Shown one piece after another: positions 24,933 to 41,651 of a DNA stretch of 64,000 nt (positions within the stretch are counted from its first letter, which is position 1; each line of letters begins with the position of its first letter). Below the pieces are notes generated by a model. It was given only the letters and a program-made list of their open reading frames with translations, had not been told where the DNA came from and ran no database searches. Source of the DNA: Pseudomonas sp. NC02 (GTDB taxonomy: Bacteria; Pseudomonadota; Gammaproteobacteria; Pseudomonadales; Pseudomonadaceae); NCBI RefSeq assembly GCF_002874965.1, contig NZ_CP025624.1, forward strand, positions 5,580,001-5,644,000, read 5' to 3'. The position numbers were made by a program, and so were the translations under genes.

Positions 24933-25645
24933 TTTAGGTAACGGCCGCTATTGGTTCCGCTCTTACAGCGGCTCACTTTTGAAGAGCGCAAAAGTAAGCA
25001 AAACGCTCTTGCCCCACCACTCGGCACCTCGCTTAGGCTCGGTGTGCCCTCACTCCGGCTTTGGACCGTGGGCCGCCGTCATGGGCCATCCTTGGCCCAG
25101 GACGGCTAACCCGGCGTCCTGCCGGGTTACCCACGCTCCAAAGCCTGCGTTCGGCCAGCGTGGTTTAACGGGGCGCCTAAGATCAAGATCAAAAGCAGAT
25201 CAACAGCACAGCGGCCTACTGGCCGGCTTGAGTGTTGAAGAGCAAAAGCCAAATCAAAATCTAAAGCGGGCACGGTCCAAATGTGGGAGCGGGCTTGCTC
25301 GCGAAGGTCGTTAACGATGACGCGGGCATTCTGAATGAACGCGGCGCTCTCAGGTTTTTCGCGAGCAAGCCCGCTCCCACAGAAAAGCAGATCTGTTTTC
25401 GCTCTGGTTTTTGCTTTTGCTTTTAACACTCAAGCCGGCCGGGAGGCCGCTGTGCTTTTGCTTTTGATCTTAGGCACCCCGTCAACCACGATGGCCGGAG
25501 TGCGGGCATGCCGAGCCTAAGCGAGGCACCGAGTGGTGGGGCAAAGACCTTTTACTTTTGGCTGGGCCGGCATTCCGGGCGTTTGCCAAAAGTGACTCGC
25601 TGTAAGAGCGGAACCATAAGTCGCCGTTACCTAAATAACGGATAT
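24933..25645. repeat. Long imperfect inverted repeat around a REPIN
   Basis: The arms (about 24933-25245 and 25395-25645) are reverse complements over many blocks: GGTTCCGCTCTTACAGCG with CGCTGTAAGAGCGGAACC, GCCCCACCACTCGG with CCGAGTGGTGGGGC, CCTCGCTTAGGCTCGG with its complement, and GCCGGCTTGAGTGTT with its complement. The left arm has about 100 extra bases (25060-25160) with its own hairpins. Between the arms lies a REP doublet. The 772-base interval holds no credible gene; open frames here are products of the repeat. Confidence 0.8.
25282..25381. repeat. REPIN A (inverted REP doublet)
   Basis: Two REP units with core GAGCGGGCTTGCTCGC and its complement GCGAGCAAGCCCGCTC lie head to head about 55 bases apart. 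The same doublet, including much of the loop (GGTCGTTAACGATGA), recurs at 33968-34067. Confidence 0.88.
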
Positions 25646-25671: not shown

Positions 25672-27069
25672 CTAGCGAACAATCTTGTCCACCTGAATCC
25701 CCAGCTTCTTCAACCGATACCAAAAACTGCGCTCGGAAATCCCGATCTTCTGCGCCGCTGCAGCCTGCACCCCGTTGCTCTCCTGCAACGCAGCCATGAT
25801 GTAAGCCTTCTCTACCTCAGCCAGCGCCGCATCCAGATCCTGCGGCACACCCGGCCCGTTGCTGAGTATTGCGCCCACCCCATCCTCAGCAGGCGTCGAA
25901 GCAAACAGATACGCCGGCAAATCAATATCCTCGATCACCGGCGTCGCCGCGACAATGGTCGCCCGCTCCACACAGTTCTGCAGCTCACGAATATTGCCCG
26001 GCCAGGAATACGCCGCCATGGCCTGCAACGCCTCGGGGCTGAAACCGGTGATGCGTTTGCCCGCCGTGGCACTCAAGGTCTGGGCAAAGTGCCGGGCCAG
26101 CGGCGCGATATCTTCCACCCGCTCACGCAAGGCCGGCAGCGGAATCGGAAATACGTTCAAGCGGTAGTAAAGGTCTTCACGAAACTCTTTGTTCGCCACC
26201 GCATCCAGCAAATTCTTGTTGGTGGCAGCGATCACTCGCACATCCACCTTGCGCTCGCGCGGGTCACCCACCGGCTCGATCACCCGCTCCTGCAAGGCCC
26301 GCAGGATTTTCGCCTGCAACGCCAACGGCATGTCACCCACTTCATCGAGAAACAACGTGCCCTTGTCGGCCTGCATGAAGCGCCCGACCCGATCCGCCAC
26401 GGCGCCAGTGAAGGCGCCCTTGCGGTGGCCGAACATCTCGCTTTCCAGCAAGCCTTCGGGGATTGCCGCGCAGTTGACCGCCACAAACGGCTTGTCGGCG
26501 CGGTTGCCGTGTTTGTGGATGGCACGGGCGACCATCTCCTTGCCGGTGCCGCTTTCGCCCGTCAGCAGCACCGTAGCGTTGCTGTCGCGCACCGAGTCCA
26601 CGGCGTGCAGCACGCGGCGGAACGCCGGGCTGTCACCCACCAGGCTGTCGAACTGCGCATGTTCATCCAACTCGGCACGCATGCGCGCGTTGTCGCGCAT
26701 GATGTCGCGAAACTGCAGGGCCTTCGCCACCGTGATGTCCAGCTCGTCGATATCGAAGGGCTTGGCGATGTAGTCGTAGGCGCCGTTGCGCATCGACTGC
26801 ACCGCGTTCTTCACGGTGCTGTAGGCGGTCATCACGATCACCGGCAGTTGCGGGTAGCGCACCTTGATTTCCGCCAGCAGCGCCGGCCCGTCCATGCCGG
26901 GCATGCGCCAGTCGCTGATCACCAGGTCGATGTCTTCCTGCTCCAGCACCTTGAGCGCGTGCAGGCCGTTGCCGGCGGTAAACACCTGGATCCCGCTCTG
27001 GCTCAAGGCCGACGAAAGCAAGTCACAGAGCTTGGGTTCGTCGTCAACTACCAATACGTTATGCGTCAT
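25672..27069 (-). CDS. Sigma54-dependent response regulator, NtrC family
   Basis: A transcriptional activator of about 465 residues. The receiver domain (1-120) has the acidic pair DDE at 9-11, phospho-acceptor Asp53 in LVISDWRMPGMDG and the AKPF lysine near 104. The AAA+ domain (about 145-375) has GESGTGKE, an intact GAFTGA sigma54 loop and GTLFLDEVGDM. The C-terminal Fis-type HTH is AAAQKIGISERSFWYRLKKLGI. The start at 27069 (MTHNVLVVDDE) gives the normal receiver N-terminus and overlaps the kinase gene by 11 bases. It is the last gene of a six-gene operon and probably activates the operon's own sigma54 promoter (32983-32998). It resembles MifR-type regulators, but I cannot assign orthology. 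Confidence 0.88.
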   Translation of the reverse strand: MTHNVLVVDDEPKLCDLLSSALSQSGIQVFTAGNGLHALKVLEQEDIDLVISDWRMPGMDGPALLAEIKVRYPQLPVIVMTAYSTVKNAVQSMRNGAYDYIAKPFDIDELDITVAKALQFRDIMRDNARMRAELDEHAQFDSLVGDSPAFRRVLHAVDSVRDSNATVLLTGESGTGKEMVARAIHKHGNRADKPFVAVNCAAIPEGLLESEMFGHRKGAFTGAVADRVGRFMQADKGTLFLDEVGDMPLALQAKILRALQERVIEPVGDPRERKVDVRVIAATNKNLLDAVANKEFREDLYYRLNVFPIPLPALRERVEDIAPLARHFAQTLSATAGKRITGFSPEALQAMAAYSWPGNIRELQNCVERATIVAATPVIEDIDLPAYLFASTPAEDGVGAILSNGPGVPQDLDAALAEVEKAYIMAALQESNGVQAAAAQKIGISERSFWYRLKKLGIQVDKIVR

Positions 27070-28837
27070 CACCATCCTCATCATCGCCGTCGTCTGCACC
27101 CTGGGCCGGAATGTACAGGCTGAAGGTGGCGCCGGCATCTGTCTCGCTGACACATTCGATGCTGCCGTCATGACTTTCCATGATCGAGAACACTTTGGCC
27201 AGACCCAAGCCCGTGCCCGAGGCCTTGGTGGTGACGAATGGTGTGAAGATCCGCTCGATCATGTCCGGCGCAATGCCCTCGCCGGTATCGCCGATGCTGA
27301 TCACCGTGTTGCCGCCCACGCTGTGGATGCCCAGGGTCAGGCGCCCGCCTCCGGGCATGGCGTCGATGGCGTTGAGAATCAGGTTCAGGCACGCCTGCTT
27401 GAGCTGCTTGGCATCGGCATAAATCGTCGCGCCGGGAGCCGCATCATCAATTTGCGCGTCGATGTTATGGGTCGCAAGCTCAGGCCCGCAGAAGCCGAGG
27501 ATCTCCTCCACCACCGGGCGTGCCGCCTGCACAGTGCGCAGCGGTGCACTGGGTTTGGCGAAGTCGAGGAATTCGGTGATCAGGTCGTTGATCCGGCTGA
27601 CTTCGCTGATCACGTATTCGAGGTGACGCTTGTCGGTTTCCGGCAAATCGGCGCGGCGGTGCAGCAACTGGGTGGCCGTCTTGATAATGCCCAGCGGGTT
27701 GCGAATTTCGTGGGCCAGGCCCATCGCGACTTCGCCCAGTGCATGCAGGCGGTCGCGGCGGCGCAGTTGCGCTTCCAGGTGATGCAACTCACCGAGGCGC
27801 TCGGTCATGTGGTTGAAGGTGCTGCTCAGTTGCGCCAGCTCGTCGCCGCCGCTGACCGCCACACGATGCTGATAGTTACCCGAGATCACCGCGCTGACGC
27901 CTTCGGACAGATCCCGCAATGGCCGGGTCAGGCGCTGGGACACCAGCATGCCCGCACCAAGGGACAACGCCGAGCTGAGCAGGAAGATCAACACGAACAG
28001 ATTGCTCTGGTTCACCAGGCCCACCAGGCTGGTATGGCGCAGCAAGCCACTGAAGATCACCCCTTGCAGCTCGCCGGCATCGTTGAAGATCGGCCAGTAC
28101 AAACCGCTGTAGTTGTTGGTGAACTGTTCGCTGGGCTGCTTGGTGCTGCGCAGCGCAGATTCGATACTCGAAGGAATCCGCGCGGGGTGATCGACAAAGC
28201 GCTGGGTGGAGAAAATCTCCGAAAACCCGCTGGGGTTGGCCAGGTACAAGCGCAGGTCGAGGGAATGCACATCGGCCACGCTGGTCAGGAAACTGCTGTC
28301 CAGATAAGTGGCCACCAGCAGTTGATAATCGACGCCGTCCTCGCTGGTCTCGAAGGTGGACACCACAACCCCGGTGGTCACGCCACCCACTTCGACCGTC
28401 TGCAACACCGCATTACTGGCCAGGTTGATTTGCTTGACGATGTCGTCGGCGGCGGTGGTAAACACGATTTTGTGGTCACTGCTGCGGATCAGCGCGACCA
28501 CGTCGATGTCGGTGGCGGCGGCAATATCAGCGGTCAGCTTGTCGTGTTTCTCGGCCTGGCGCGACGACGGCGGCTTGGTGTAGCGCAGGAACAGTTGGGC
28601 GACCCGGGCGTTGTCGTGGAGGATGTCGCCGATCTCGTCCTTGACGATCTTGGTCGACTCCTGCAGCCAGATACGCACGTTACTGTCGAAGATCTGCGAC
28701 AGCGTCGTCGCGGCCAGCTCCGCCGCGATCATCGTCGGAATTACCGTCACCAGCCAGAACGCCAACACCAGCTTGCGCTGGACGCTCCAACGCGAAATGG
28801 CAAAGGGGCGGGCTTTTTGGCGGGTCTTGTTGATCAT
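27059..28837 (-). CDS. Membrane sensor histidine kinase with periplasmic sensor and HAMP
   Basis: The partner kinase of the overlapping sigma54 regulator, 592 residues. TM1 is near 22-46 (LVLAFWLVTVIPTMIAAEL), followed by a large periplasmic region 47-275 of double-Cache appearance, TM2 near 279-299, a HAMP domain about 300-352, HisKA with His376 in GLAHEIRNPLGIIK, and a HATPase domain with LNLILNAIDAMPGG, IGDTGEGI and GTGLGLAK. The acidic C-terminus (DDEDGDD) is overlapped by the regulator start. Its first codon shares one base with the stop of the acyltransferase gene, so sensor and enzymes are translated as a unit. The ligand is unknown; a product or substrate of the operon enzymes is a natural guess. 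Confidence 0.88.
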   Translation of the reverse strand: MINKTRQKARPFAISRWSVQRKLVLAFWLVTVIPTMIAAELAATTLSQIFDSNVRIWLQESTKIVKDEIGDILHDNARVAQLFLRYTKPPSSRQAEKHDKLTADIAAATDIDVVALIRSSDHKIVFTTAADDIVKQINLASNAVLQTVEVGGVTTGVVVSTFETSEDGVDYQLLVATYLDSSFLTSVADVHSLDLRLYLANPSGFSEIFSTQRFVDHPARIPSSIESALRSTKQPSEQFTNNYSGLYWPIFNDAGELQGVIFSGLLRHTSLVGLVNQSNLFVLIFLLSSALSLGAGMLVSQRLTRPLRDLSEGVSAVISGNYQHRVAVSGGDELAQLSSTFNHMTERLGELHHLEAQLRRRDRLHALGEVAMGLAHEIRNPLGIIKTATQLLHRRADLPETDKRHLEYVISEVSRINDLITEFLDFAKPSAPLRTVQAARPVVEEILGFCGPELATHNIDAQIDDAAPGATIYADAKQLKQACLNLILNAIDAMPGGGRLTLGIHSVGGNTVISIGDTGEGIAPDMIERIFTPFVTTKASGTGLGLAKVFSIMESHDGSIECVSETDAGATFSLYIPAQGADDGDDEDGDDA

Positions 28838-29961
28838 CAGGTTTCGCTTATCGCAGCAGCCATGGCAGGGTCGGATCGATCCGGTCGGAGAAACACTTTT
28901 GCAACGAACAGCGCACGGTTGACCAGCCAGTTACGGTGGCGGAAAAACATGCTGTTGCCCTGGAACTCGCAGCCCAGCAGCAACTTGCTGGCATAGCCGG
29001 CCTGACCACATTCATATAACGCAATATCGTTGCGAATACAGTAGTCGATGTTGGTTAACCAACTGCGCACCGCCAGGCTGTATTCGCGACTGTAGTTACT
29101 GTCTTCGCCGAAAAACTTGTCAATCAGGCGATCCCGGTTAAGCAGGATCAGGTTGAACGCCACCAGTTGCTCGTCCACCCAATAAAGCACACAGACCGCA
29201 CGTTCCTGCAGCTGTTCAAGGATACCGGTGAAATAGCCTGCCGGCAGTCGCTCGAACTGCAGGTCGGAGCGTTCCAGGGTGGCCTCATACAGCGCCATGA
29301 TGCGCGGCAGTACGTCGTCGATGTTGCGTCGCCACTCGACACGCGGCCCCGGCGCACGCAGTTTGCGGCGCAGGTCCTTGCGGGTGGCTTTGTCCAGGGA
29401 ACCGAGGTAAGCGTCCACTGAACCAAAAGGGATCGGCAACAAGGCCGTTGGCAGGCTGGGCATGCTCTGGAAACCCGCGCCTAGGCAGCTGTTTGACCAG
29501 CCTTCGTCCCTGGTCGGTGCATCCTTGACCGCCACCAGCCCGACGCGGAACGTATCGGCATCCTGGCGCGCGGCAGCGAGCAATTGCGCAAGCAGAGCCT
29601 CGCGCCCTGATTCGGCAACGTGGCTGGCGATGCCCGCATTGCACTGCTCCGCCACCGGCGAGCCGATGGCATACAGGCCCAACTTCAAAACACCCGGCCA
29701 CAGTCGCTCCAGGCGCTCGGTAAAGCGCTTGCCTACGCCTGACACGGTGGTGTCCAGGCGATACCGCGTGATGAACGCCGGTGCGACCGCCACCAGCCTT
29801 GCATCGTCAAACACCGCGAGGTAGCGCCACTGAAAGTCATCAATAGCGGCGTTTTCCACGGCCACGTAATAGTCCCAATCCTCCAGGGCATCGGGAAAAC
29901 AGTCGTTCCAGGCACTGCGTTCGATGGCCCGAATGGTCGAAAAGGCTTGGGCGGTGATCAC
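28837..29961 (-). CDS. GNAT/FemAB-like acyltransferase, uncharacterised
   Basis: A 374-residue protein. The C-terminal half (about 180-340) has the GNAT-like layout YLGSLDKATRKDLRRKLR, then VCVLYWVDEQLVAFNLILLN and CIRNDIALYECGQAGYASK, typical of the long acetyltransferase-6 (BioF2/FemAB-like) proteins that transfer acyl or aminoacyl groups to amines. No signal peptide or membrane helix is clear. It lies 16 bases after the hydrolase gene and one base into the kinase gene. Substrate unknown; within the operon it could acylate an amine made by the class III aminotransferase. Confidence 0.7.
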   Translation of the reverse strand: MITAQAFSTIRAIERSAWNDCFPDALEDWDYYVAVENAAIDDFQWRYLAVFDDARLVAVAPAFITRYRLDTTVSGVGKRFTERLERLWPGVLKLGLYAIGSPVAEQCNAGIASHVAESGREALLAQLLAAARQDADTFRVGLVAVKDAPTRDEGWSNSCLGAGFQSMPSLPTALLPIPFGSVDAYLGSLDKATRKDLRRKLRAPGPRVEWRRNIDDVLPRIMALYEATLERSDLQFERLPAGYFTGILEQLQERAVCVLYWVDEQLVAFNLILLNRDRLIDKFFGEDSNYSREYSLAVRSWLTNIDYCIRNDIALYECGQAGYASKLLLGCEFQGNSMFFRHRNWLVNRALFVAKVFLRPDRSDPAMAAAISET

Positions 29962-29977
29962 GTCAAATCCTTAGGGT

Positions 29978-30844
29978 TCAAGCCAGCTGTCGATAATCTT
30001 CAGGTGCCTCTGTGGCGTGTGCGTGCTGCCCGACAAACTCGGCACTCAACTCGATCACCCGACGGTATTGCAGGTCGACGGTGATCATGTGGTAGCAGTT
30101 GTCCAGCAGGATCTTGGTCACGGGGCCGCCGAGATGGCGTTCCACGTAATCGGCGTTCCAACGGCTGGTTATGTCATCCTCGATGGAATGCAGCACCAGG
30201 GCCGGGGTCTTGATCGATGGCATGAGCTTCTTCACCACGGCATTCATCCAGTGCAACTCGCGCACCGTGACGCCCTCCATGGTCAAGAGACCCGCCTCGC
30301 TGCTCTCCCCTTCCTTCATCTGCCGCTCGACGATCGCCCGCAGGCGCTCGTTCTTGATGCCGTAGGGCGGCTTTTCAGTAAAGCGGAACAGGCGCACACC
30401 GAAGGGAATACGGATCAGCAAGGGCGTGATGAACGCCATCTTGTTGATGCTCCAGCCGTCGTACTTCAACGTCGTGGAGTACATCAGCAAGCCGGCAACC
30501 TGGCCGGGGAACTGCGACGCCACGTACATCGACATCACCGCGCCCATCGACAAGCCGCCGACGAATACCTGCTCGTGACGCTGTTTCACCGCGACGAAGG
30601 TCTTGCGCACGCCTTCGTACCAGTCCTGCCAGCCGGTGGCTTGCAGGTCGCTGTTGTCCCCGCAGTGGCCGGCCAGGGTCGGCACGTACACCGTGCAGTT
30701 ACCGACCTTGGCCAACCCCTGGGCCACCCGACGGAGTTCCGTCGGGGTGCCCGTCAGGCCGTGGATCAACAAGATCCCAATCGGACCGCTACCGAGAACG
30801 AAGCCGGCATCACCTTCACCGAGGTCGATCTCGTGGCTGCTCAC
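29978..30844 (-). CDS. Alpha/beta hydrolase, carboxylesterase/monoacylglycerol-lipase-like
   Basis: A cytosolic serine hydrolase of 288 residues similar in layout to Est30/YvaK carboxylesterases. The HGLTGTPTE oxyanion region is near residue 28, the nucleophile elbow GLSMG (Ser near 98) is in VGGLSMGAVMSMY, the acid is likely in HSIEDDITS near 220, and the catalytic histidine is in NCYHMITVD near 253. ATGA overlap with the aminotransferase gene. The substrate is unknown; an ester or amide intermediate of the operon pathway is plausible. Confidence 0.82.
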   Translation of the reverse strand: MSSHEIDLGEGDAGFVLGSGPIGILLIHGLTGTPTELRRVAQGLAKVGNCTVYVPTLAGHCGDNSDLQATGWQDWYEGVRKTFVAVKQRHEQVFVGGLSMGAVMSMYVASQFPGQVAGLLMYSTTLKYDGWSINKMAFITPLLIRIPFGVRLFRFTEKPPYGIKNERLRAIVERQMKEGESSEAGLLTMEGVTVRELHWMNAVVKKLMPSIKTPALVLHSIEDDITSRWNADYVERHLGGPVTKILLDNCYHMITVDLQYRRVIELSAEFVGQHAHATEAPEDYRQLA

Positions 30845-32235
30845 CGTTTGGTCGCTCGCACAAGCAGTTGCTCGAGCAGCTTCAGGCCCAGGTCGATTTC
30901 CGGGTAGCTGATTTCCAGCGACGGTGCCAGGGTGATCACGTTCTTGTAGTAGCCGCCCACGTCGAGGATCAGGCCGAGTTTCTGACCGTCAACCACCATG
31001 TCGCCCTTCATGCCTTCCTCGACCATGTAGTCCAGGGTCGCCTTGTCCGGAGTGAAGCCGTCCGGGCCGCAGATTTCGCAGCGCAGTGCCAGGCCCAGGC
31101 CGTCGACGTCGCCGATGATCGGGAAGCGCTTTTGCAGCTCTTGCAGGCCGGCCAGGAAGTATTTGCCCTTGGCCATGACCATCGCGCCGTAGTCGACTTC
31201 GCTGGTCATCTTGAACATTTCCAGGCCTACCGCGGTGCCCAACGGGTTGGACGCGAAGGTGGAGTGGGTGGAGCCTGGCGGGAAGATCTTAGGGTTGATC
31301 AACTCTTCCTTGGCCCAGATGCCGCCCAGCGGGTTCAGGCCGTTGGTCAATGCCTTGCCGAAGACGATCACGTCCGGCTTGACGTCGAAGTGTTCGATCG
31401 ACCACAGCTTGCCGGTACGCCAGAAGCCCATCTGGATTTCGTCGACAACCATCAGGATGCCGTGCTGGTCGAGGACCTGCTTGAGCTCGCTGTAGAAGTT
31501 CATCGGCGGGATCACGTAGCCGCCGGTGCCCTGGATCGGCTCGACGTAGAAGGCGGCGTATTCGCTCTGGCCGACTTTCGGGTCCCACACACCGTTGTAT
31601 TCGGTTTCGAACAGACGGGCGAACTGCTGCACGCAGTGGCTTCCGTATTCTTCCTTGGTCATGCCTTTAGGGCCGCGGAAGTGGTACGGGAACGGGATGA
31701 AGTTGGCGCGCTCGCCGAAGTGGCCATAGCGACGACGGTAGCGGTAGCTCGAAGTGATCGACGAAGCGCCAAGGGTACGGCCGTGGTAGCCGCCTTCGAA
31801 GGCGAACATCAGGCTCTTGCCGTTGGTGGCGTTACGCACCACTTTCAGGGAGTCTTCGATGGACTGCGAACCGCCCACGTTGAAGTGCACACGACCGTCG
31901 AGGCCGAATTTTTTCTTGGCGTCGACTGCAATCATTTCCGACAGCTCGATCTTGCCTTTGTGCAGGTACTGGCTGGCGATTTGCGGCAGGGTGTCGATCT
32001 GCTGTTTCAGCGCGTTGTTCAGGCGCGGGTTGGCGTAACCGAAGTTAACGGCCGAGTACCACATTTGCAGGTCGAGGTAAGCCTGGTCTTCGGTGTCCCA
32101 CACGTAGGAGCCTTCGCAGCGGCTGAAAATGCGCGGCGGGTCGATGTAGTGAACGGTGTCGCCGTAGGAGCAGTACTTGGCTTCTTTATCCAGAAGAACC
32201 TGGTCTTCTGCGGTAGCGATGCGGATATCAGACAT
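30841..32235 (-). CDS. Class III PLP-dependent aminotransferase
   Basis: A 464-residue fold-type I enzyme. It shows NVGGSQSIEDSLKVVRN near 120, the GGYHGRT PLP-phosphate segment near 150, VEPIQGTGG near 230, the aspartate pair in MVVDEIQMGFWRTGK near 260 (Asp holding the pyridine nitrogen), and the Schiff-base lysine in VIVFGKALTNG near 290. Such enzymes move an omega-amino group (diamines, beta- or gamma-amino acids), and a few are phospho-lyases or epimerases. The operon also has a phosphatase, so the substrate may be derived from a phosphorylated precursor. It overlaps both neighbours (8 and 4 bases). Confidence 0.85.
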   Translation of the reverse strand: MSDIRIATAEDQVLLDKEAKYCSYGDTVHYIDPPRIFSRCEGSYVWDTEDQAYLDLQMWYSAVNFGYANPRLNNALKQQIDTLPQIASQYLHKGKIELSEMIAVDAKKKFGLDGRVHFNVGGSQSIEDSLKVVRNATNGKSLMFAFEGGYHGRTLGASSITSSYRYRRRYGHFGERANFIPFPYHFRGPKGMTKEEYGSHCVQQFARLFETEYNGVWDPKVGQSEYAAFYVEPIQGTGGYVIPPMNFYSELKQVLDQHGILMVVDEIQMGFWRTGKLWSIEHFDVKPDVIVFGKALTNGLNPLGGIWAKEELINPKIFPPGSTHSTFASNPLGTAVGLEMFKMTSEVDYGAMVMAKGKYFLAGLQELQKRFPIIGDVDGLGLALRCEICGPDGFTPDKATLDYMVEEGMKGDMVVDGQKLGLILDVGGYYKNVITLAPSLEISYPEIDLGLKLLEQLLVRATKR

Positions 32236-32938
32236 GGTGGAAGAGTTCCTGATTGTCGGAAGAGGTGCTGAAGGAGGTGGCGTTGGCGGCGATGCCCTGA
32301 GGCAGCTTGGCCAGCAATGCCGGCAGTTCGGCGAAGGTGTCGAACCGCGCGTAAGGGATGTTGTTGGTTTCGCAGTAGTCGGCCAGGCTGGCCTTGGCGA
32401 AGACGAAGTCGGCGGTGGAGGCCACGCACATGTCGGACTTGCCGTCGCCGATCACCAGCACGCGCTTGTTGCGCGGCGTGGACTTGCACTTGCAGTTGCC
32501 GGAGGCGGCACGGCAGGCGTCGCTGGCATACGGGAAGTCGATGCGCCAGCTGTTCTGGTCGACCTGGCGCAGGCGGTTGGCGAGGATCGGCAGCAAGGTC
32601 ACGTAGTTGCGCGACAGAATCCGCGCGATGCCTTGTTCGATGCCATCGCTGACCACTTCAATGGAAGCGCCCAGGCCCATGACGTGGTCGACGAAGTCCG
32701 GGAAGTCCGGATCGATCTCGACGCTGTCGAAATACGCCAGCAACTCGGCCGGGGTCGCCTTGATCAGCGCCAGTTGACGGCTCAGGCATTCGCGCGAACC
32801 GATGTGCCCATCCAGCCATTCCTGCTCGATGGTTTCCCACTCGGGGCCGGCGAAGCGTTGGAGGACGTTGTCGATGACGTCGGTAGGAGTGATAGTCCCG
32901 TCGAAGTCACACACGATATGCCAGTGGATCATCTGCAT
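32228..32938 (-). CDS. MtnX-like HAD-IB phosphatase
   Basis: A 236-residue HAD-superfamily phosphatase related to MtnX/phosphoserine phosphatases. Motif I is CDFDGTIT near residue 10 (Asp nucleophile and acid), motif II VVSDG near 95, motif III lysine in the CKCKSTPRNKRV segment and motif IV IGDGKSDMC near 165. An insertion with four cysteines (CRAASGNCKCK) could bind metal. It is the first gene of the six-gene operon, 45 bases downstream of a sigma54 promoter match. Substrate unknown. Confidence 0.82.
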   Translation of the reverse strand: MQMIHWHIVCDFDGTITPTDVIDNVLQRFAGPEWETIEQEWLDGHIGSRECLSRQLALIKATPAELLAYFDSVEIDPDFPDFVDHVMGLGASIEVVSDGIEQGIARILSRNYVTLLPILANRLRQVDQNSWRIDFPYASDACRAASGNCKCKSTPRNKRVLVIGDGKSDMCVASTADFVFAKASLADYCETNNIPYARFDTFAELPALLAKLPQGIAANATSFSTSSDNQELFHHV

Positions 32939-32982
32939 TTACCTATGAAGTAGGAACGCGCTGTTGCGCTTGCAGGGGATAG

Positions 32983-32998
32983 AGCATGGAGTGTGCCA
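32983..32998 (-). promoter_or_regulatory. Sigma54 promoter of the six-gene operon
   Basis: Read on the minus strand, TGGCAC-ACTCC-ATGCT agrees with the -24/-12 consensus TGGCAC-N5-TTGCW at all but one position, with GG and GC ten bases apart. It is almost identical to the gltI promoter in this window. It is placed 45 bases before the phosphatase start and points into an operon whose last gene is a sigma54 activator. Confidence 0.75.
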
Positions 32999-33060
32999 AG
33001 TGCCACCAACCCCTGTTTTCAAAGGGTTTGGCGGGTATCGGCGTGTGGTTGTGTCGGAAC

Positions 33061-33088
33061 TTGCTACAATTTTTGTAGCTTGCTACAA
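33061..33088. promoter_or_regulatory. Triple half-site element, candidate enhancer for the operon's regulator
   Basis: Three copies of the heptamer GCTACAA/TTGTAGC in alternating orientation: GCTACAA 33063-33069, TTGTAGC 33073-33079, GCTACAA 33082-33088. They form two overlapping palindromes with 3- and 2-base spacers. The element lies 63-92 bases upstream of the sigma54 -24 box, an enhancer distance, and also upstream of the divergent MipA-like gene. Binding by the operon's regulator is inferred. Confidence 0.6.
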
Positions 33089-33161: not shown

Positions 33162-33932
33162 ATGTTCAGGGTTACTTTTGCTGTATTCACCGGCTTGCTG
33201 GGGCTGTGGGGCGTTTGCGGCGCTGCGCTGGCGGACGGAATTACCGGTGAAGCCGGCGCAGGCGTCAGCTATCAGCCCCACGATCCGACGGGCAGCCGCT
33301 ACGAAACGCGGCCGATCCCGTATTTCGACCTGGATTGGGGGAGTGTCAGCCTGGGTACCGACGATGGGCTGACCTGGAGTGCCCTGAATACCCATGGCTT
33401 TACTGCCGGGCCTTACATCAACTACTTGCCGGGGCGGACGGCCAATGGGTCGCTGCGGGGCTTGCGTGATGTTTCGGATATGGCCGAGATCGGCGGCTTC
33501 ATCCAATACGCTCCGGCTGAGTTCTGGCGGGTGTATGCGCAGGTGGGCCAGGCCGTGGGCGGGGCGCGTGATCAAAGCGGCGTGGTGGGCAAGCTCGGCG
33601 GCGAGTTGGGTTATCCGTTGGGGAGCGGCATTATCGGCAGCACCGGCTTGATGGCGCACTTTGCCGATGCCCGCCAGGCGCAGACGTTTTTCGGGGTGGA
33701 TGCCAATGAGGCTGCGGCCTCGGGGTTTCGGCCGTATAACGCCAGTGCCGGGTTTCAGAACCTGACGTTGACGCAGAGTTTTGAGTTTCCTTTGGATGCG
33801 AAGTGGTCGCTGTTGACCAGTGCCAGTTGGATACACCTGGTGGGGTCAGCGGCCAATAGCAGCATCGTCAAGGAGACCGGGGATGTGAATCAGGGGCAGG
33901 TGCAGACGGCCATCAGCTATAAGTTTGATTGA
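33162..33932 (+). CDS. MipA/OmpV family outer-membrane protein
   Basis: A 256-residue exported protein. It has a signal peptide (MFRVTFAVFTGLLGLWGVCGAALA, cleaved near residue 24), then a beta-rich mature part with GAGVSYQP near 30, YEVRP-like YETRPIPYFDLDW near 45, the FTAGPYINY segment near 80, and a C-terminal strand ending in SYKFD. The MipA family includes the scaffold of murein hydrolases and OmpV-like porins. The start at 33162 opens the signal peptide behind AAAGGAA; ATG 33138 is possible in frame. It is divergent from the six-gene operon and shares its control region. Confidence 0.8.
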   Translation: MFRVTFAVFTGLLGLWGVCGAALADGITGEAGAGVSYQPHDPTGSRYETRPIPYFDLDWGSVSLGTDDGLTWSALNTHGFTAGPYINYLPGRTANGSLRGLRDVSDMAEIGGFIQYAPAEFWRVYAQVGQAVGGARDQSGVVGKLGGELGYPLGSGIIGSTGLMAHFADARQAQTFFGVDANEAAASGFRPYNASAGFQNLTLTQSFEFPLDAKWSLLTSASWIHLVGSAANSSIVKETGDVNQGQVQTAISYKFD

Positions 33933-35871: not shown

Positions 35872-36074
35872 GAAAAACACCGAAACGCAGAACCCCAGTA
35901 GAGCGCGAGTCTGATGAACTTTGTACAAGCGCGCTGCCACAGTTCAGTGACAGTTTGATGAAGGGCGCCCAACGGTCATCCGCGTATCTATCTATCACCT
36001 CACGCCCTGGCCCCGCCTTTTTAATGGTGCATTCACCGGCAAGCCCGGTCTCACCAGAGCATGAACACACCATC

Positions 36075-39000
36075 ATGAGTGACCTCACCCTACTTCCCCC
36101 GTCTGCCACCCTGAGCGACTTCGCCTCACCGTCGCTTCCAGGCCAGGCCCGCCTCCAGGACCAGAGCCTGTCCCTGCAAGCCTCAGCGCGCTGGCGCGAA
36201 AGCCAACAGGAACTGCATCAACTGATTGCCCAGGCACCCGGCGTGCGCGACTCCATCGAACAATCGCTCACAGAGCATTGGCAACTGGGCGCCGCACCGG
36301 TCGGCCTGGGTTTTCTCAAGACCGAAGATCACGACGAGCACTTCGTCAGCCTGGTGGATGCCTGGGGATTTATCTGCCAGTTTCCAGACATCTCCCCCAC
36401 CCTGGATGCCCGCAGCACCGTGGTCGGCCTGGCGTCCCACCGCCTGTCAGCCCTCACGCCCGTGCAATTGCTCAAGCGGCTCCAGGCACTGGGCCTGGGG
36501 AAACTGCTCAGCGCCCGCTGGGAAAACTATTGGAGTACCCGGGCGCCGGGTACGCCGTTGTCCCGTCGCGAGCGGGCGGCACAACTGTACTGCCAGCATT
36601 TCGAGGCCTGCGGGCAATCGGCCTATGCCCAGGGAAGGCTGGGTGCCCAACAACTGATCTCGTTGCAGACAGTGCTCAACCCGGTCACCACCCCCAATGG
36701 CGTACGCCCCGTCGAGACCTGCCAGCTGGCGTTGCTGCTGCCCGACCAGAGCAAGGTCAAATTGGCTGGCGCCTGGGTCATCTCCGTGGGCCAGGAGCCG
36801 CTGTTGACACAAACCCTGTACCTGCCCTGCCGGCAACCCGGCGTGATGGTCTTCAGCCAACGCCGCGACATGGAGCAGTGGCTGGTCGCAGCGCATCAGC
36901 AACTGATCCCGCCGGACGTCGCGGCTGACGCTGTCACCGTCGAATACAGCTCGCGCACCGAACCCCTGGAGCACGGCATTCTGGACCTGCTGTCGCACCT
37001 GCACGCGGCTCAGTTGGAAAGCCTGCGCAACCGTCATCGCAATGGCAGTGACCTGGCCCGTTACGCCAGCCATGCCCTGGATGATGCCGACCGCCTGGAC
37101 AGCCAGCGCCGGGAAATCCCGATGCTTATCGCACCGCATCAACCGGCAGCTACGCCCGGCCCGGACGCTGACGACCTGCCTCCTGCCCTGCCCTTCGGCC
37201 ACCTCAGCGCCGACATTGCCCTGGGCCAGCGCTGGGCCGCGATCAGGCTGCAACGCAGCTCACTGGAACGCTTCCTGGGCGATGGCCCTGAGCAAACCGC
37301 CCGGCTGGCGCAGTTGAAGGGTTTGATGCAAGCGCTGAAAGACGCAGAGCAGGCCGGCAATGATGCCGCCAGCGGCCTGCTGGCAAAAAAAGCCGCCTTC
37401 GATCAACTTGAGCTGCGGCAAAAACCCAATCCGGACTATGACGCGCTCTACCAGGCGCGGCTCGCCGCCCTGCGCGCCGAGGGCGCCATCCAGCATGCGC
37501 TCCAGCAGATCAGCGATGAAGAACACGGCCTGCTCCTGGCCGTCACGGAACACCCCGCGGCCCCGGAACGCCGCCCGGCTGTCGCGGTGACCCGCCTGAT
37601 CCTCTCCAGCCGTGACCCAAGGGAAGGTTCCGAGGAGCTGACAGGCCTGTTGCTCATCACCCAGACCAGCGCGCTGACCTCTTCGGCGCCCCACAGCCTG
37701 TTGCTGTACTGGCCCGGCAATGCAGGCGGCCTGCAGCGTTTCGAATCCCGCCAAGCCCTGGAACACTCGCTGTTCAAGCTGTCGAGCGAAGCGCAGGACG
37801 TCACCCTGCAATTGTCGCTGCTGACCGGCGACCCGATTGAATACTCGTTGCAACAGCAGCTGTACGCCAGCGAACAACAGGCGTATGCGCTGATCTCCCT
37901 CTTCCCGGTGCCTCCGTTCGGCCAGGAGCGAACCGAAGGCCTGGACAAACTCAAAGAACAAACCCTGTTTACCCTGCAAACCCCGGTGTGCCTGGCGCGG
38001 GAACTGGCGTATGGACAACTGCTCGAGCAACAACGCAGCAGCACCCTGGCCGGGGCACTGCCTGGGGAGTTGAGCCAGTTGCCGGCAGATGAACGCCTGG
38101 CGCTCAAGCACCTGATACACGCGCAGATCAGCGCCCTGCATCGCTCGCAGCAATTGCTCGAACGCGAGCTGGAACCTTTCGACGATTTCGGCCAGCGCCG
38201 CCTGGACCAACGCCTGCGCGAAGACTTCCAGCTTGAACACACCTGGTCGGTGCAACTGGACCTGCCCGATACGGTCAGCCAGGAGCGCGAATACCTGTCC
38301 GAATACGCGGGCCCGGGTACACCGTTCAAGTATGTGACGGTGCCCAGTGCCCGCCGCAGCACCCTGTCATTGTTGCAACTGGCCCAGCAAAACATCGACC
38401 CGACGCTGGCCCAGCGCCTGACCTACATGAAGCTCGATGTCTCCGGCCCCAATGCCCCTGAAACCACCCGGCTGACCACCGGCCTGTCCCTGGAATACCT
38501 GAAGACCCTGGTCAAGGAGCTGGACCTCGCCGGGGCCTACGAAAGCTTGATCACCCGCACCTTCCTCGGTGATCCCGCGGCGGCGCCTTTCACCACGCAG
38601 CACCGTCGCGAATGCCTGACCGAGCCCCTGCGCCTGATGCTCATGCTGCAAGGCAAACGCGCGCGGGCCCTGGGGCGAGTCGACGACAACGATCTGCGGC
38701 TGCTGAGCATAGCCATCGACGCCGACAACGCGGATGCCTGGCAGGTGGAAGACAAGAAAATCGTGCTGCTGCCGGCCACCCTGAGTGCGGGCGGTGAAGA
38801 TACCGACTTCGGTCCGACCACCCTGTCAGGGGTCACCTTCATCCAGGAACAAATCTCCGGCACAACCCTGCTGTACCTGCCAAACAGCCCGGACAACCAG
38901 GACCTGCGGCGCTACCCGAGCCTGGAACTGGCCCGCAAGGCGCTCTACGACCTCAGCCTGGTCAGCGGCATGAGCGCCTACCTGGCCGGCCTGGCCATCA

Positions 39001-41651
39001 AGGGCGACACCGCCGCCCACCTCGCCCGGATCGCCCAGGCCCAGCAACGGAATTTTGATCCGGTCTTTGCCGTCGGAACCCCGTGGCCGGCCACCACCTC
39101 GCTGGCCGCCCATTTGCTGAACGCCCATATGGGCCGCGTCATAGAAGCGCACCGCGCGACCTCGCGCTCCAACGCGGCCTTGTTGCTGGAGCAGAATGCG
39201 CTGCGCGCCGGGCTGATCTTCAACTACCTGAAAATCGCCCTGGGGCTGGTGCCTTTCGTGGGTTCGGTCGTCGCGTTGTATGACGCCTGGTCCAGTGCCA
39301 ACCTGGCCACTGCTGCGTTCCTGCGCGGGAACGTCGGCCATGGCCTGGCCGAGGTCGAGGCGGTGCTGTTGTCGCTGATCGACTGCGCCATGGACATTCT
39401 GCCGGGCAGCCTCGCCCTGCCGATCAACGCCCGCGCTGCCACGCGCCAGCGTCAATTGCGCCATCTGGCCAGCAGCGCCGCCAGCCTGCACCTTCCCTCG
39501 GTCACCCAGGCTCGGCGGGCGGCACAGCGTTTCGCCGGTTATGAATATGAAGGAGTGATCTCGCTGGCCGGGCTGCAACCGCAGACCCACGGTTTTTATC
39601 GCAATGTGTACCGGCATACCGAAGGCGACTTCATCGTGCGGCGCGGGCGCATCTATCAGGTTGAGCTGGCCGGCGATCCCCTGGACTGGCGCCTGAGCCC
39701 GACCCGCAGCAAAACCTACAAGCAGCCGATTGCCCTGGATGAAAACGGCGAATGGGACACTCACTACGGCGTCTACGGCAGCGCATTCAAGGGCGGCCTG
39801 GCGGGTGGCGGCAGCGTGCTCGGGCATATGGCCGAAGTGCTTGATCCGATCTGGCCCCAGTCGATCCGTGATTACTTGCCACGCTGGTGGACCGACCGCG
39901 CCCTGCGCCGCCAACAGGCGCTGGCCAACAGTATCAACAGCCGCGAAGACCTGATTGCGCTCTCCATTAACCGAACCGAAGAACTGATGGCCCGCACCGA
40001 CAGCGCAGGCCCGGCGATCCGCAGAGCCTTCGAGCAGGACATCGAACTGTACAGCCGCCAGTATCAGGAACTGACGGAGTTCGTGCCCTTTACCAGCGGC
40101 AACCGCCAGCGCGCGATCAGAGAGGACATGAGCCGCAATGCGGCGCGCCTGACCCTGACCACCCTGAACCGGGCGCGCTATCACTTCAAGCAGATCGAGG
40201 CACGGATCCTGGAGCTTGGAACCCATAACATGACCGCTATCTCCCCCGAGGTTTTCGACACCTTGGCAATCGTTCCCGCCATGCTGGAGATCCTGCGGCA
40301 GCGTAAAAGGATCAGCAGCGAGATTCTGCGTGACCTGGACCGGATCGATGCCGACTTTTCCCAGTTCAACCGCTGGTTCGATCAGGTTACCGATGCCGCC
40401 CACCGTACCCGGCTAAGCCCGATGCTGGAGCAATTCCGACGTACGCTCAATGACAGCTACCGCACGCACCTGAAATTTTTACACCGCTTCGATACCCTTG
40501 AGACTTACCCCGAAGTTGCCGAGCTGTCTTGGTTCTACTTGCGGGCCCAGGCCCGGGACAGCTACGCCAAAGTCAACCGCGCATGGGCTTCGCATTTTGA
40601 ACTGCCCAACGCCAGCGCCAACATCACACAGCGGCGCAAGGTGCTGGAAGACTGCATACAGGCCTATGAACAATTCCGGCTGACCATCCGCACCTGGAAC
40701 CTCGGTTACCCGCAGCATTTCGACCAGGCGCAACTCAGTGCGTTTTTCGTCGACATTGACCAGATGATCGAACTCGCCCGCCGGGCCATCAAGGAGTCGC
40801 CGGCAAGCCGCCCACCGGCCGGGCAACCCGTGCGGCGGGTATTCGACACCGAGGACAATATTTCCCTGGTGGGCACCGAGAGCATCGACCCACAAACCCA
40901 AGCCACCACTTACCAGGTTGAGAGCGCCAGCGGGCGCGTCGAGACCTGGGTGAAGGGCCCCGGCGGCAAATCCCGGCTCAAGGACAGTGCCGCCTCGGAA
41001 CCCGCGCCGCCGGAGTCCAACGTCAAGCCGTTCGTGGTGAGCGAAGCCAGGGCTCGCCTGGACAACGTCGCGCTGTACGAAAGCCGCGCCACCGCCTACA
41101 CCGAGCAAAAAATGCTGCCGGTGGACCTGGAGCACCTGCTGGTCAGCGAAGCGGCCGAGTTGAACCTGCGGGCCAATCGCCTGGAACGCCTGGACCCTAC
41201 CGAGGACCTCGTGCGCCAACTGCGGGCCAAGGCCATGGAGCTGACCATCAAGGGCCGCAACCTGCGAATCCGCCAGACCCTCGCCAGCAAAACCCCCACC
41301 GAAGGCTATCTGGACTACCTTCGCGAACAACGGGTGGTGGAGATTCGCAAGGGCGAACCGGCCCGCAACCTCAATGAAGGCAAGAAAGGACGGGCGGATT
41401 ATCTTCAGGAATACGTGATTCAGGACCTGACACAAACGCCGCCCGCCACCCTGTGGTATGCGCACTTTCATTACGACAAGGCCGGGGCGCAGTTCGACGA
41501 GTTCACCAAGGCCCACTTGAAGATTCCCGAGCAGCGCAACCTGGGCCTGCAATGGCAAGTCGCCCAGGCGCAAGCCGGGGCCGCGGTGGACCCTATCTGG
41601 CGCGGCAATATCGGGCGAGCGCTGGCCACCCGGCACTTTGCCGGGGTGTAA
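36075..41651 (+). CDS. Giant toxin-like protein with dermonecrotic-toxin-type region (DUF6543-like)
   Basis: A 1858-residue protein of the large Pseudomonas family that I associate with the dermonecrotic toxin/DUF6543 domain. No signal peptide. The N-terminal two thirds are alpha-helical with repeated CREC/RREC-like segments (for example QHRRECLTEPLRLMLMLQGK near 855). A hydrophobic hairpin lies near 1045-1110 (LKIALGLVPFVGSVVALYDAW). Then comes the GYEYEGVISLAGL...GFYRNVYR...GDFIVRRGRIYQV block near 1155-1195, a long helical stalk, and a C-terminal region (about 1700-1858) that I do not recognise. The order of a helical N-part, hydrophobic hairpin and linker parallels the effector at 57830, but LRR and NEL domains are absent. 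The start at 36075 (MSDLTLLPP) is favoured; the frame opens at 35955. Confidence 0.78.
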   Translation: MSDLTLLPPSATLSDFASPSLPGQARLQDQSLSLQASARWRESQQELHQLIAQAPGVRDSIEQSLTEHWQLGAAPVGLGFLKTEDHDEHFVSLVDAWGFICQFPDISPTLDARSTVVGLASHRLSALTPVQLLKRLQALGLGKLLSARWENYWSTRAPGTPLSRRERAAQLYCQHFEACGQSAYAQGRLGAQQLISLQTVLNPVTTPNGVRPVETCQLALLLPDQSKVKLAGAWVISVGQEPLLTQTLYLPCRQPGVMVFSQRRDMEQWLVAAHQQLIPPDVAADAVTVEYSSRTEPLEHGILDLLSHLHAAQLESLRNRHRNGSDLARYASHALDDADRLDSQRREIPMLIAPHQPAATPGPDADDLPPALPFGHLSADIALGQRWAAIRLQRSSLERFLGDGPEQTARLAQLKGLMQALKDAEQAGNDAASGLLAKKAAFDQLELRQKPNPDYDALYQARLAALRAEGAIQHALQQISDEEHGLLLAVTEHPAAPERRPAVAVTRLILSSRDPREGSEELTGLLLITQTSALTSSAPHSLLLYWPGNAGGLQRFESRQALEHSLFKLSSEAQDVTLQLSLLTGDPIEYSLQQQLYASEQQAYALISLFPVPPFGQERTEGLDKLKEQTLFTLQTPVCLARELAYGQLLEQQRSSTLAGALPGELSQLPADERLALKHLIHAQISALHRSQQLLERELEPFDDFGQRRLDQRLREDFQLEHTWSVQLDLPDTVSQEREYLSEYAGPGTPFKYVTVPSARRSTLSLLQLAQQNIDPTLAQRLTYMKLDVSGPNAPETTRLTTGLSLEYLKTLVKELDLAGAYESLITRTFLGDPAAAPFTTQHRRECLTEPLRLMLMLQGKRARALGRVDDNDLRLLSIAIDADNADAWQVEDKKIVLLPATLSAGGEDTDFGPTTLSGVTFIQEQISGTTLLYLPNSPDNQDLRRYPSLELARKALYDLSLVSGMSAYLAGLAIKGDTAAHLARIAQAQQRNFDPVFAVGTPWPATTSLAAHLLNAHMGRVIEAHRATSRSNAALLLEQNALRAGLIFNYLKIALGLVPFVGSVVALYDAWSSANLATAAFLRGNVGHGLAEVEAVLLSLIDCAMDILPGSLALPINARAATRQRQLRHLASSAASLHLPSVTQARRAAQRFAGYEYEGVISLAGLQPQTHGFYRNVYRHTEGDFIVRRGRIYQVELAGDPLDWRLSPTRSKTYKQPIALDENGEWDTHYGVYGSAFKGGLAGGGSVLGHMAEVLDPIWPQSIRDYLPRWWTDRALRRQQALANSINSREDLIALSINRTEELMARTDSAGPAIRRAFEQDIELYSRQYQELTEFVPFTSGNRQRAIREDMSRNAARLTLTTLNRARYHFKQIEARILELGTHNMTAISPEVFDTLAIVPAMLEILRQRKRISSEILRDLDRIDADFSQFNRWFDQVTDAAHRTRLSPMLEQFRRTLNDSYRTHLKFLHRFDTLETYPEVAELSWFYLRAQARDSYAKVNRAWASHFELPNASANITQRRKVLEDCIQAYEQFRLTIRTWNLGYPQHFDQAQLSAFFVDIDQMIELARRAIKESPASRPPAGQPVRRVFDTEDNISLVGTESIDPQTQATTYQVESASGRVETWVKGPGGKSRLKDSAASEPAPPESNVKPFVVSEARARLDNVALYESRATAYTEQKMLPVDLEHLLVSEAAELNLRANRLERLDPTEDLVRQLRAKAMELTIKGRNLRIRQTLASKTPTEGYLDYLREQRVVEIRKGEPARNLNEGKKGRADYLQEYVIQDLTQTPPATLWYAHFHYDKAGAQFDEFTKAHLKIPEQRNLGLQWQVAQAQAGAAVDPIWRGNIGRALATRHFAGV

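Follow-up and report, generated by a model that had tools for sequence, protein, structure and literature searches.

What does an operon make that joins four metabolic enzymes to its own sensor kinase and sigma54 activator, and how is it switched on? This question was raised by a 64,000-nucleotide stretch of the Pseudomonas sp. NC02 genome (contig NZ_CP025624.1, positions 5,580,001 to 5,644,000; the window), in which six minus-strand genes at 25672-32938 encode, in transcription order, a HAD phosphatase, a class III pyridoxal phosphate (PLP) enzyme (AT), an alpha/beta hydrolase, a FemAB-like protein, a kinase and an NtrC-type regulator. We read the operon, with a probability of about 0.6, as a self-contained envelope-linked biosynthesis locus with a built-in sigma54 loop and a cationic amino-lipid as its favoured product. 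The features concerned are as follows.

32228..32938, minus strand: HAD-IB phosphatase, MtnX-like subfamily, operon gene 1 (TIGR01489, 83.6 bits vs cut-off 81.55)
30841..32235, minus strand: AT, class III PLP enzyme with aminotransferase fold, the most conserved member (PF00202, 1.9e-72)
29978..30844, minus strand: alpha/beta hydrolase, monoacylglycerol-lipase-like (PF12146)
28837..29961, minus strand: FemAB-like dual-GNAT transferase (PF04339, 39.5 bits vs cut-off 27)
27059..28837, minus strand: membrane sensor histidine kinase, cytoplasmic part nearest ZraS/AtoS (family searches, structure model)
25672..27069, minus strand: NtrC-type sigma54-dependent response regulator (receiver, AAA+ sigma54 and Fis-type helix-turn-helix domains, all above Pfam cut-offs; GAFTGA in the translation)
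32983..32999, minus strand: predicted sigma54 promoter TTGGCAC-N5-ATGCT, match TTGGCACACTCCATGCT (consensus match; site conserved)
33063..33079, minus strand: predicted regulator operator GCTACA-AAAAT-TGTAGC (phylogenetic footprinting)
33073..33088, no strand assigned: overlapping second dyad TTGTAGC-TT-GCTACAA, giving a third half-site (29/29 Pseudomonas loci at no more than three mismatches)
33162..33932, plus strand: divergent gene (mipA) for a MipA/OmpV-family outer-membrane protein, sharing the regulatory region (PF06629, 121.4 bits vs cut-off 24.2)

The gene boundaries from HAD through AT, hydrolase and FemAB-like gene to kinase are -8, -4, +16 and -1 bases. The kinase/regulator overlap of -11 was derived from the coordinates with the regulator start MTHNVLV (27069); automatic start choice picks an upstream start and gives -26 instead. 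This is the one-strand arrangement of six genes, with overlaps of 8, 4, 1 and 11 bases and a 16-base gap, that had been described in the initial annotation, and Pfam confirmed the gene families. The HAD/AT overlap is kept in 29/29 Pseudomonas loci and the AT/hydrolase overlap in 27/29, and the hydrolase-FemAB gap ranges from 10 bases upwards among Pseudomonas loci. Promoter and operator fall inside 25672..33088, with mipA just beyond.

Control of the operon was examined by comparing loci within and beyond the genus. The initial annotation had pointed to a sigma54 promoter ahead of the first gene, and a site at this position, with at most two mismatches, is present in 29/29 Pseudomonas loci examined, while one-mismatch sigma54 matches as such are not rarer than chance within the window (3 found vs 4.09 expected). 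A GTDB scan for two AT signature peptides supplied 80 loci, kept as the best by score to an alphaproteobacterial first sequence, a biased sample with near-copies; the distant set comprises 71 loci with over 8 kb of sequence to either side, members being called by bit-score cut-offs. Promoters were scored by a scheme of our own for the sigma54 consensus, in which GG and GC had to be present, over the 350 bp ahead of the inferred HAD start. A strong site occurred in 57/57 loci with an NtrC-type regulator (40 Pseudomonas-type, 17 distant), as against 2/27 loci with an OmpR-type regulator, 8/47 other loci and 1.9% of 4,320 random windows. Among the eight positive others, L046 and L186 are from Pseudomonas, L092 is cut off before the regulator's place, L103 and L107 carry a regulator that is NtrC-like but more distant and L101, from the same genus, is a short contig, leaving L164 and L187 without explanation.

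Inspection of the 17 distant upstream regions revealed a shared 17-bp dyad with the consensus GCTMCA-N5-TGKAGC, which takes the form GCTACA-N5-TGTAGC in Pseudomonas, Camelimonas and Nevskia, CTACA-N5-TGTAG in Mesorhizobium and GCTCCA-N5-TGGAGC in Bosea and L102. The consensus was matched at one or fewer (two or fewer) mismatches in 39 (40) of 40 Pseudomonas-type and 12 (16) of 17 distant NtrC-type loci, 0 (0) of 27 OmpR-type loci, 3 (5) of 47 other loci and 1.9% (8.1%) of 8,640 windows of 400 bp drawn at random from the same loci. Outside controls for the operator are limited to the OmpR-type loci and these random windows. At the looser setting the dyad lies above the sigma54 site in 56/57 NtrC-type loci. 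L179 lacks it, and the best match in L089 overlaps its own promoter and is hardly an operator. The consensus of NtrC itself, TGCACCAnnnTGGTGCA (PMC8743547), is also a 17-bp dyad with different bases. Since promoter and operator track the NtrC-type regulator in distant genera and are missing with OmpR-type regulators, it is very probable that the operon is activated through sigma54 by its own regulator, with a positive loop built in. This half of the initial interpretation is strongly supported by the sequence comparison, and 33063-33088 is most likely the site through which the regulator would turn the operon on.

Four perfect matches to the degenerate dyad occur in this genome, with GCTACA/TGTAGC arms only at 33063-33079, and the perfect form of the second dyad occurs once. 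The three other perfect matches all have GC-richer spacers; at one or fewer mismatches 82 places matched vs 202 for the reversed control, and the first dyad pattern at two or fewer mismatches showed no excess over control in this genome (68 vs 79). Because genome matches do not exceed those of control patterns, no further regulon targets are claimed.

A counterpart is found in P. fluorescens SBW25, where PMC10621929 and PMC10482368 identify GNAT, kinase and regulator as PFLU1130, 1131 and 1132 and aauR as PFLU1134, and where an RpoN site upstream of PFLU1127/8/9 was predicted in another study, cited in PMC10621929. As in the NC02 operon, a three-gene unit with a predicted RpoN site is followed by GNAT, kinase and RpoN-dependent regulator with aauR nearby, and the operon is PFLU1127-1132 as matched by gene order and neighbour, not by sequence. 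Work on the SBW25 kinase/regulator pair has treated it as an origin of rewired flagellar control and describes what PFLU1132 natively targets as unknown (PMC10621929, PMC10482368). The PFLU1131-del15 mutation raises PFLU1130/1/2 expression (PMC10621929, PMC10482368), and a second-step deletion fusing 1131 and 1132 to the PFLU1127 promoter gave +4.26 and +3.79 log2 over delta-fleQ; for this strain the authors already named a positive feedback loop as a possibility (PMC10621929). The dyad and promoter found here predict the native target of PFLU1132, and would give this orphan regulator, a model of evolutionary rewiring, a precise native promoter and operator candidate. The initial annotation knew of no described pathway with this gene set. 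The locus is not wholly undescribed, as its kinase and regulator are known from motility rewiring (PMC10621929), but the gene set itself was described in no title or abstract opening found in the open-licence literature, and as a set the enzyme system is apparently undescribed.

How far the enzymes extend was assessed with AT, which was detected at E 1e-120 or better in 26/398 genomes of the phylum, five of them Pseudomonas, and of which at least 586 stretches in the GTDB scan encode a relative. AT is 93-99% identical in 27 other Pseudomonas loci and mostly 65-75% identical outside the genus, the lowest value being 55%; named records with the locus include Xanthomonas sacchari and plasmids of Agrobacterium, Sinorhizobium and Bartonella. 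Members of the 71 distant loci were HAD (68), hydrolase (65), FemAB (53), arginase-like (51), EamA (49) and MipA (26), followed by FtsX permease (18), KAS (17), DegT (17), desaturase (15), HlyD (14), ACP (13) and TolC (4). On these counts HAD, AT and hydrolase form the core, and sequence comparison indicates that this core is a wider system across Pseudomonadota of which the six-gene operon is one form. A desaturase-like open reading frame (ORF) lies inside the fetched stretch of 7/42 Pseudomonas-type loci. In some loci of the Hyphomicrobium group (L129, L134, L139, L152, L164 and others) the recognised members are only HAD, AT and one or two hydrolases, some with an FtsX-type exporter; this minimal form may reveal the chemistry of the system.

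Regulators are less constant. The initial annotation would have been weakened by enzyme and regulator genes usually lying apart in other genomes; in Pseudomonas the outcome speaks for it, since they are together in 40/42 loci, the exceptions being a match just under the score cut-off (476 bits) and a short contig, but outside the genus an NtrC-type regulator accompanies the core in only 17/71 loci and an OmpR-type one in 28. The best quick AT tree requires 11 changes of regulator type; support is poor for 39/101 of its inner branches, and the supported ones by themselves call for no fewer than 4 to 7 changes per type.

Among 119 Pseudomonas genomes, AT was found in 34, a FemAB-like match in 29 (an orthologue in 28 of them) and the arginase-like partner in 26, all of these among the 28 with FemAB, none among the six with AT and no FemAB and none among the other 85. 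All 28 FemAB loci carry the six genes and mipA (in this comparison the regulator gene is labelled by its paralogue, through the overlap rule). Beyond mipA, 21/28 have the arginase-like gene and two EamA genes, and the EamA genes alone are present in two more. Neither lies beyond mipA in this genome, G095 or G031, and the G048 contig ends just after mipA; all four carry elsewhere an arginase-like gene of another subfamily, 79-100% identical among them. G079 was considered for this group and left out of the count, its contig breaking beside an AauR-type gene. In the distant loci FemAB and arginase-like genes were both present in 51, FemAB only in 2, the arginase-like gene only in 0 and neither in 18. 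FemAB, arginase-like and EamA genes thus appear to come and go together, as a pattern in the sequences rather than a test: corrected for relatedness, 3 or 4 independent contrasts on supported branches are left, most agreeing with the partner patterns and none significant, and for FemAB vs EamA a few disagree with joint occurrence.

The other-subfamily arginase-like gene (near 6.55 Mb in this genome) adjoins a FemAB paralogue and, in the fetched loci L059, L061 and L064, an EamA pair. L059 (6545909-6565856 of this genome), L061 and L064 share a Xanthomonas-type set of arginase-like, EamA and FemAB2 genes, with DegT in L059 and L064. L059 has no convincing operator or promoter.

The enzyme families suggest what kind of product to expect. 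A DFDGT motif is present in the HAD protein of 132/133 loci with a HAD match; the protein scores below the NCBIfam equivalog cut-off for MtnX of methionine salvage (94.1 vs 303.2 bits) and belongs to the broader MtnX-like subfamily only. AT is a class III aminotransferase family member (PF00202, 244.6 vs 30.5 bits), and a test for the GABA/ornithine type was negative. The Arg at the position of R398 in E. coli GABA-AT is replaced by T in 133/139 loci (in six the position was not found by pattern), whereas R is present in all three relatives covering the site among the four displayed solved relatives. For the hydrolase the best solved relative is a thermostable monoacylglycerol lipase (9.2e-29). 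The FemAB-like protein had no match at E < 0.05 in a PDB sequence search; its structure model (pLDDT 91.8) has the predicted dual-GNAT FemX fold of FemABX transferases, the top matches being the aminoacyl-tRNA-dependent peptide synthases FemX and FemA, then MprF, with kinship also to streptothricin peptide synthases. An amine-containing product, as first proposed, is supported in part by AT, the FemX-like fold and the arginase-like partner; the initial interpretation as a whole is partly supported.

In the proposed mechanism the kinase, perhaps with the outer-membrane barrel MipA, would respond to an envelope condition or compound. The phosphorylated regulator would bind 33063-33088 and activate the promoter at 32983-32999, yielding the enzymes and more kinase and regulator. 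Less certainly, the substrate of AT may be a precursor of strong negative charge, probably phosphorylated or bound to a carrier; the HAD enzyme may take off phosphate, the hydrolase may trim or free an acyl ester, and the FemAB-like enzyme may couple the amine to an amino acid or acyl group. The arginase-like protein and the EamA pair, whose genes lie elsewhere in this genome, may finish the product and move it to the outer membrane or medium. An amino-lipid is favoured because the FemAB-like fold is nearest to aminoacyl-tRNA-dependent transferases. The findings point to a widespread enzyme system and hint that it modifies or supplies the cell envelope.

Known systems resemble parts of this scheme. 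ZraSR and AtoSC are the closest curated families by score to kinase and regulator, but the scores lie under curated cut-offs (AtoC 491.4 vs 714 bits, ZraR 410 vs 760) and the target genes differ. An exosortase/PEP-CTERM system was rejected, PrsR (405.5 vs 502.6 bits) and the hydrolase 2 family (20.2 vs 202.75) both being below cut-off. MprF and FemX share the dual-GNAT fold at only 10-18% identity to those structures. In the Arn lipid A pathway, ArnE/F are weakly resembled by the EamA partners and ArnB by the DegT partner (Xanthomonadaceae-type proteins of L095), with L095 EamA scores under the NCBIfam cut-offs for ArnE and ArnF (32.6 vs 92 and 31 vs 99 bits) and DegT also under its cut-off. 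Compared with MprF/FemX and Arn, the operon has an extra phosphatase and PLP enzyme. A more specific version of our reading is a cationic envelope lipid of a new class: the core would form a lipid-linked amine, to be aminoacylated by a soluble FemX/MprF-like enzyme and flipped by an ArnE/F-like pair under a MipA-assisted sigma54 switch. We regard this version as doubtful; if true, the system would serve across Pseudomonadota as a stand-alone alternative to MprF and Arn.

As to the signal, the sensor part of the kinase matches sCache_3_3 at E 0.021 (15.6 bits, below the cut-off of 28.8), and the distant L102 kinase has a Cache match likewise under cut-off (E 0.00062). The whole-kinase model (pLDDT 75.0) has two beta-rich segments, and its fold-search lists were filled by the kinase core, for which ZraS was the best match; the label Cache-like is weakly supported by these sequence matches. 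MipA/OmpV is encoded in 42/42 Pseudomonas-type loci. In P. aeruginosa MipBA-ParRS a MipA/OmpV barrel is tied to a two-component system, as here, with MipA and MipB proposed as polymyxin co-sensors for ParRS (PMC10936184), and the BesRS envelope-stress regulon of Burkholderia thailandensis includes a MipA/OmpV gene (PMC9426598). These precedents make envelope sensing plausible. ParR is not known to be a sigma54 activator. The operon's enzymes have no counterpart in mipBA as described in the available part of PMC10936184. Among the distant loci MipA occurs only with a two-component system (both 26, two-component only 17, MipA only 0, neither 28; that is, 26/43 vs 0/28, uncorrected for relatedness) and never with the FtsX permease (both 0, MipA only 26, FtsX only 18, neither 27). 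MipA and the envelope setting suggest that an envelope signal is at least as likely as product sensing.

The alternatives share the regulatory half of our reading and differ in product or purpose. That the product is a secreted specialised metabolite (antibiotic, surfactant or metallophore) instead of an envelope lipid is unlikely. In its favour, tripartite exporter genes adjoin the core in X. sacchari and Agrobacterium plasmids, AT is patchily distributed (34/119 Pseudomonas genomes) and the FemAB-like fold has streptothricin synthase kin. However, FtsX, HlyD and TolC genes are found in 0/42 Pseudomonas-type loci, and no non-ribosomal peptide synthetase or modular polyketide synthase was recognised among the recurrent families looked at, which do not cover every ORF. 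A diffusible-signal loop of the kind put forward in the initial annotation, in which a small amine compound is exported and sensed by its own kinase with quorum-like positive feedback, is improbable. It would fit the autoregulated layout, the recurring exporters and small EamA proteins and the two-component genes beside the core in 43/71 distant loci, but the frequent switches of regulator type around a constant core fit control by local conditions better than a receptor dedicated to the product, and the FemAB-less Pseudomonas loci (L113-L118) keep the same kinase type, so that the kinase does not need a FemAB-modified product. A catabolic operon sensing and degrading an exogenous amine or lipid is least credible: many NtrC-type systems govern uptake and catabolism, phosphatase, transaminase and esterase could be degradative and the neighbours are taken as AauSR and an acidic amino-acid transporter, but no uptake transporter or dehydrogenase was recognised in the conserved set, and KAS, ACP, desaturase and exporters recur in other lineages.

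Several points weigh against an envelope amino-lipid locus under a single loop. FemAB is absent from 6/34 AT-bearing Pseudomonas genomes and is therefore not essential, and the hydrolase-FemAB gap is as wide as 282 bases in one relative. In SBW25, 1127-1129 and 1130-1132 are regarded by the authors as separate operons, a Rho-dependent terminator being predicted in between (PMC10621929). Operator counts in NtrC-type loci were made on the very sequences that had yielded the motif. Since KAS, ACP, DegT and the exporters occur in 0/42 Pseudomonas-type loci, the lipid argument depends on other lineages. The order of the enzyme steps is guesswork, and the arginase-like role has no explanation.

Some neighbouring features were also recorded. 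A DUF2147 protein is repeatedly encoded beside the core in alphaproteobacterial loci (L091 4692-5297 by Pfam; L134 and L164 by the look of the sequence). In the window, inverted-repeat-rich, REP-like intergenic sequence was seen by eye downstream of the regulator gene (25260-25560). Beyond mipA lie DsbA-like and alpha/beta hydrolase genes, then a plus-strand ORF of 1898 residues (35955-41651) with three Pfam matches to ToxA_N, the dermonecrotic toxin N-terminal domain.

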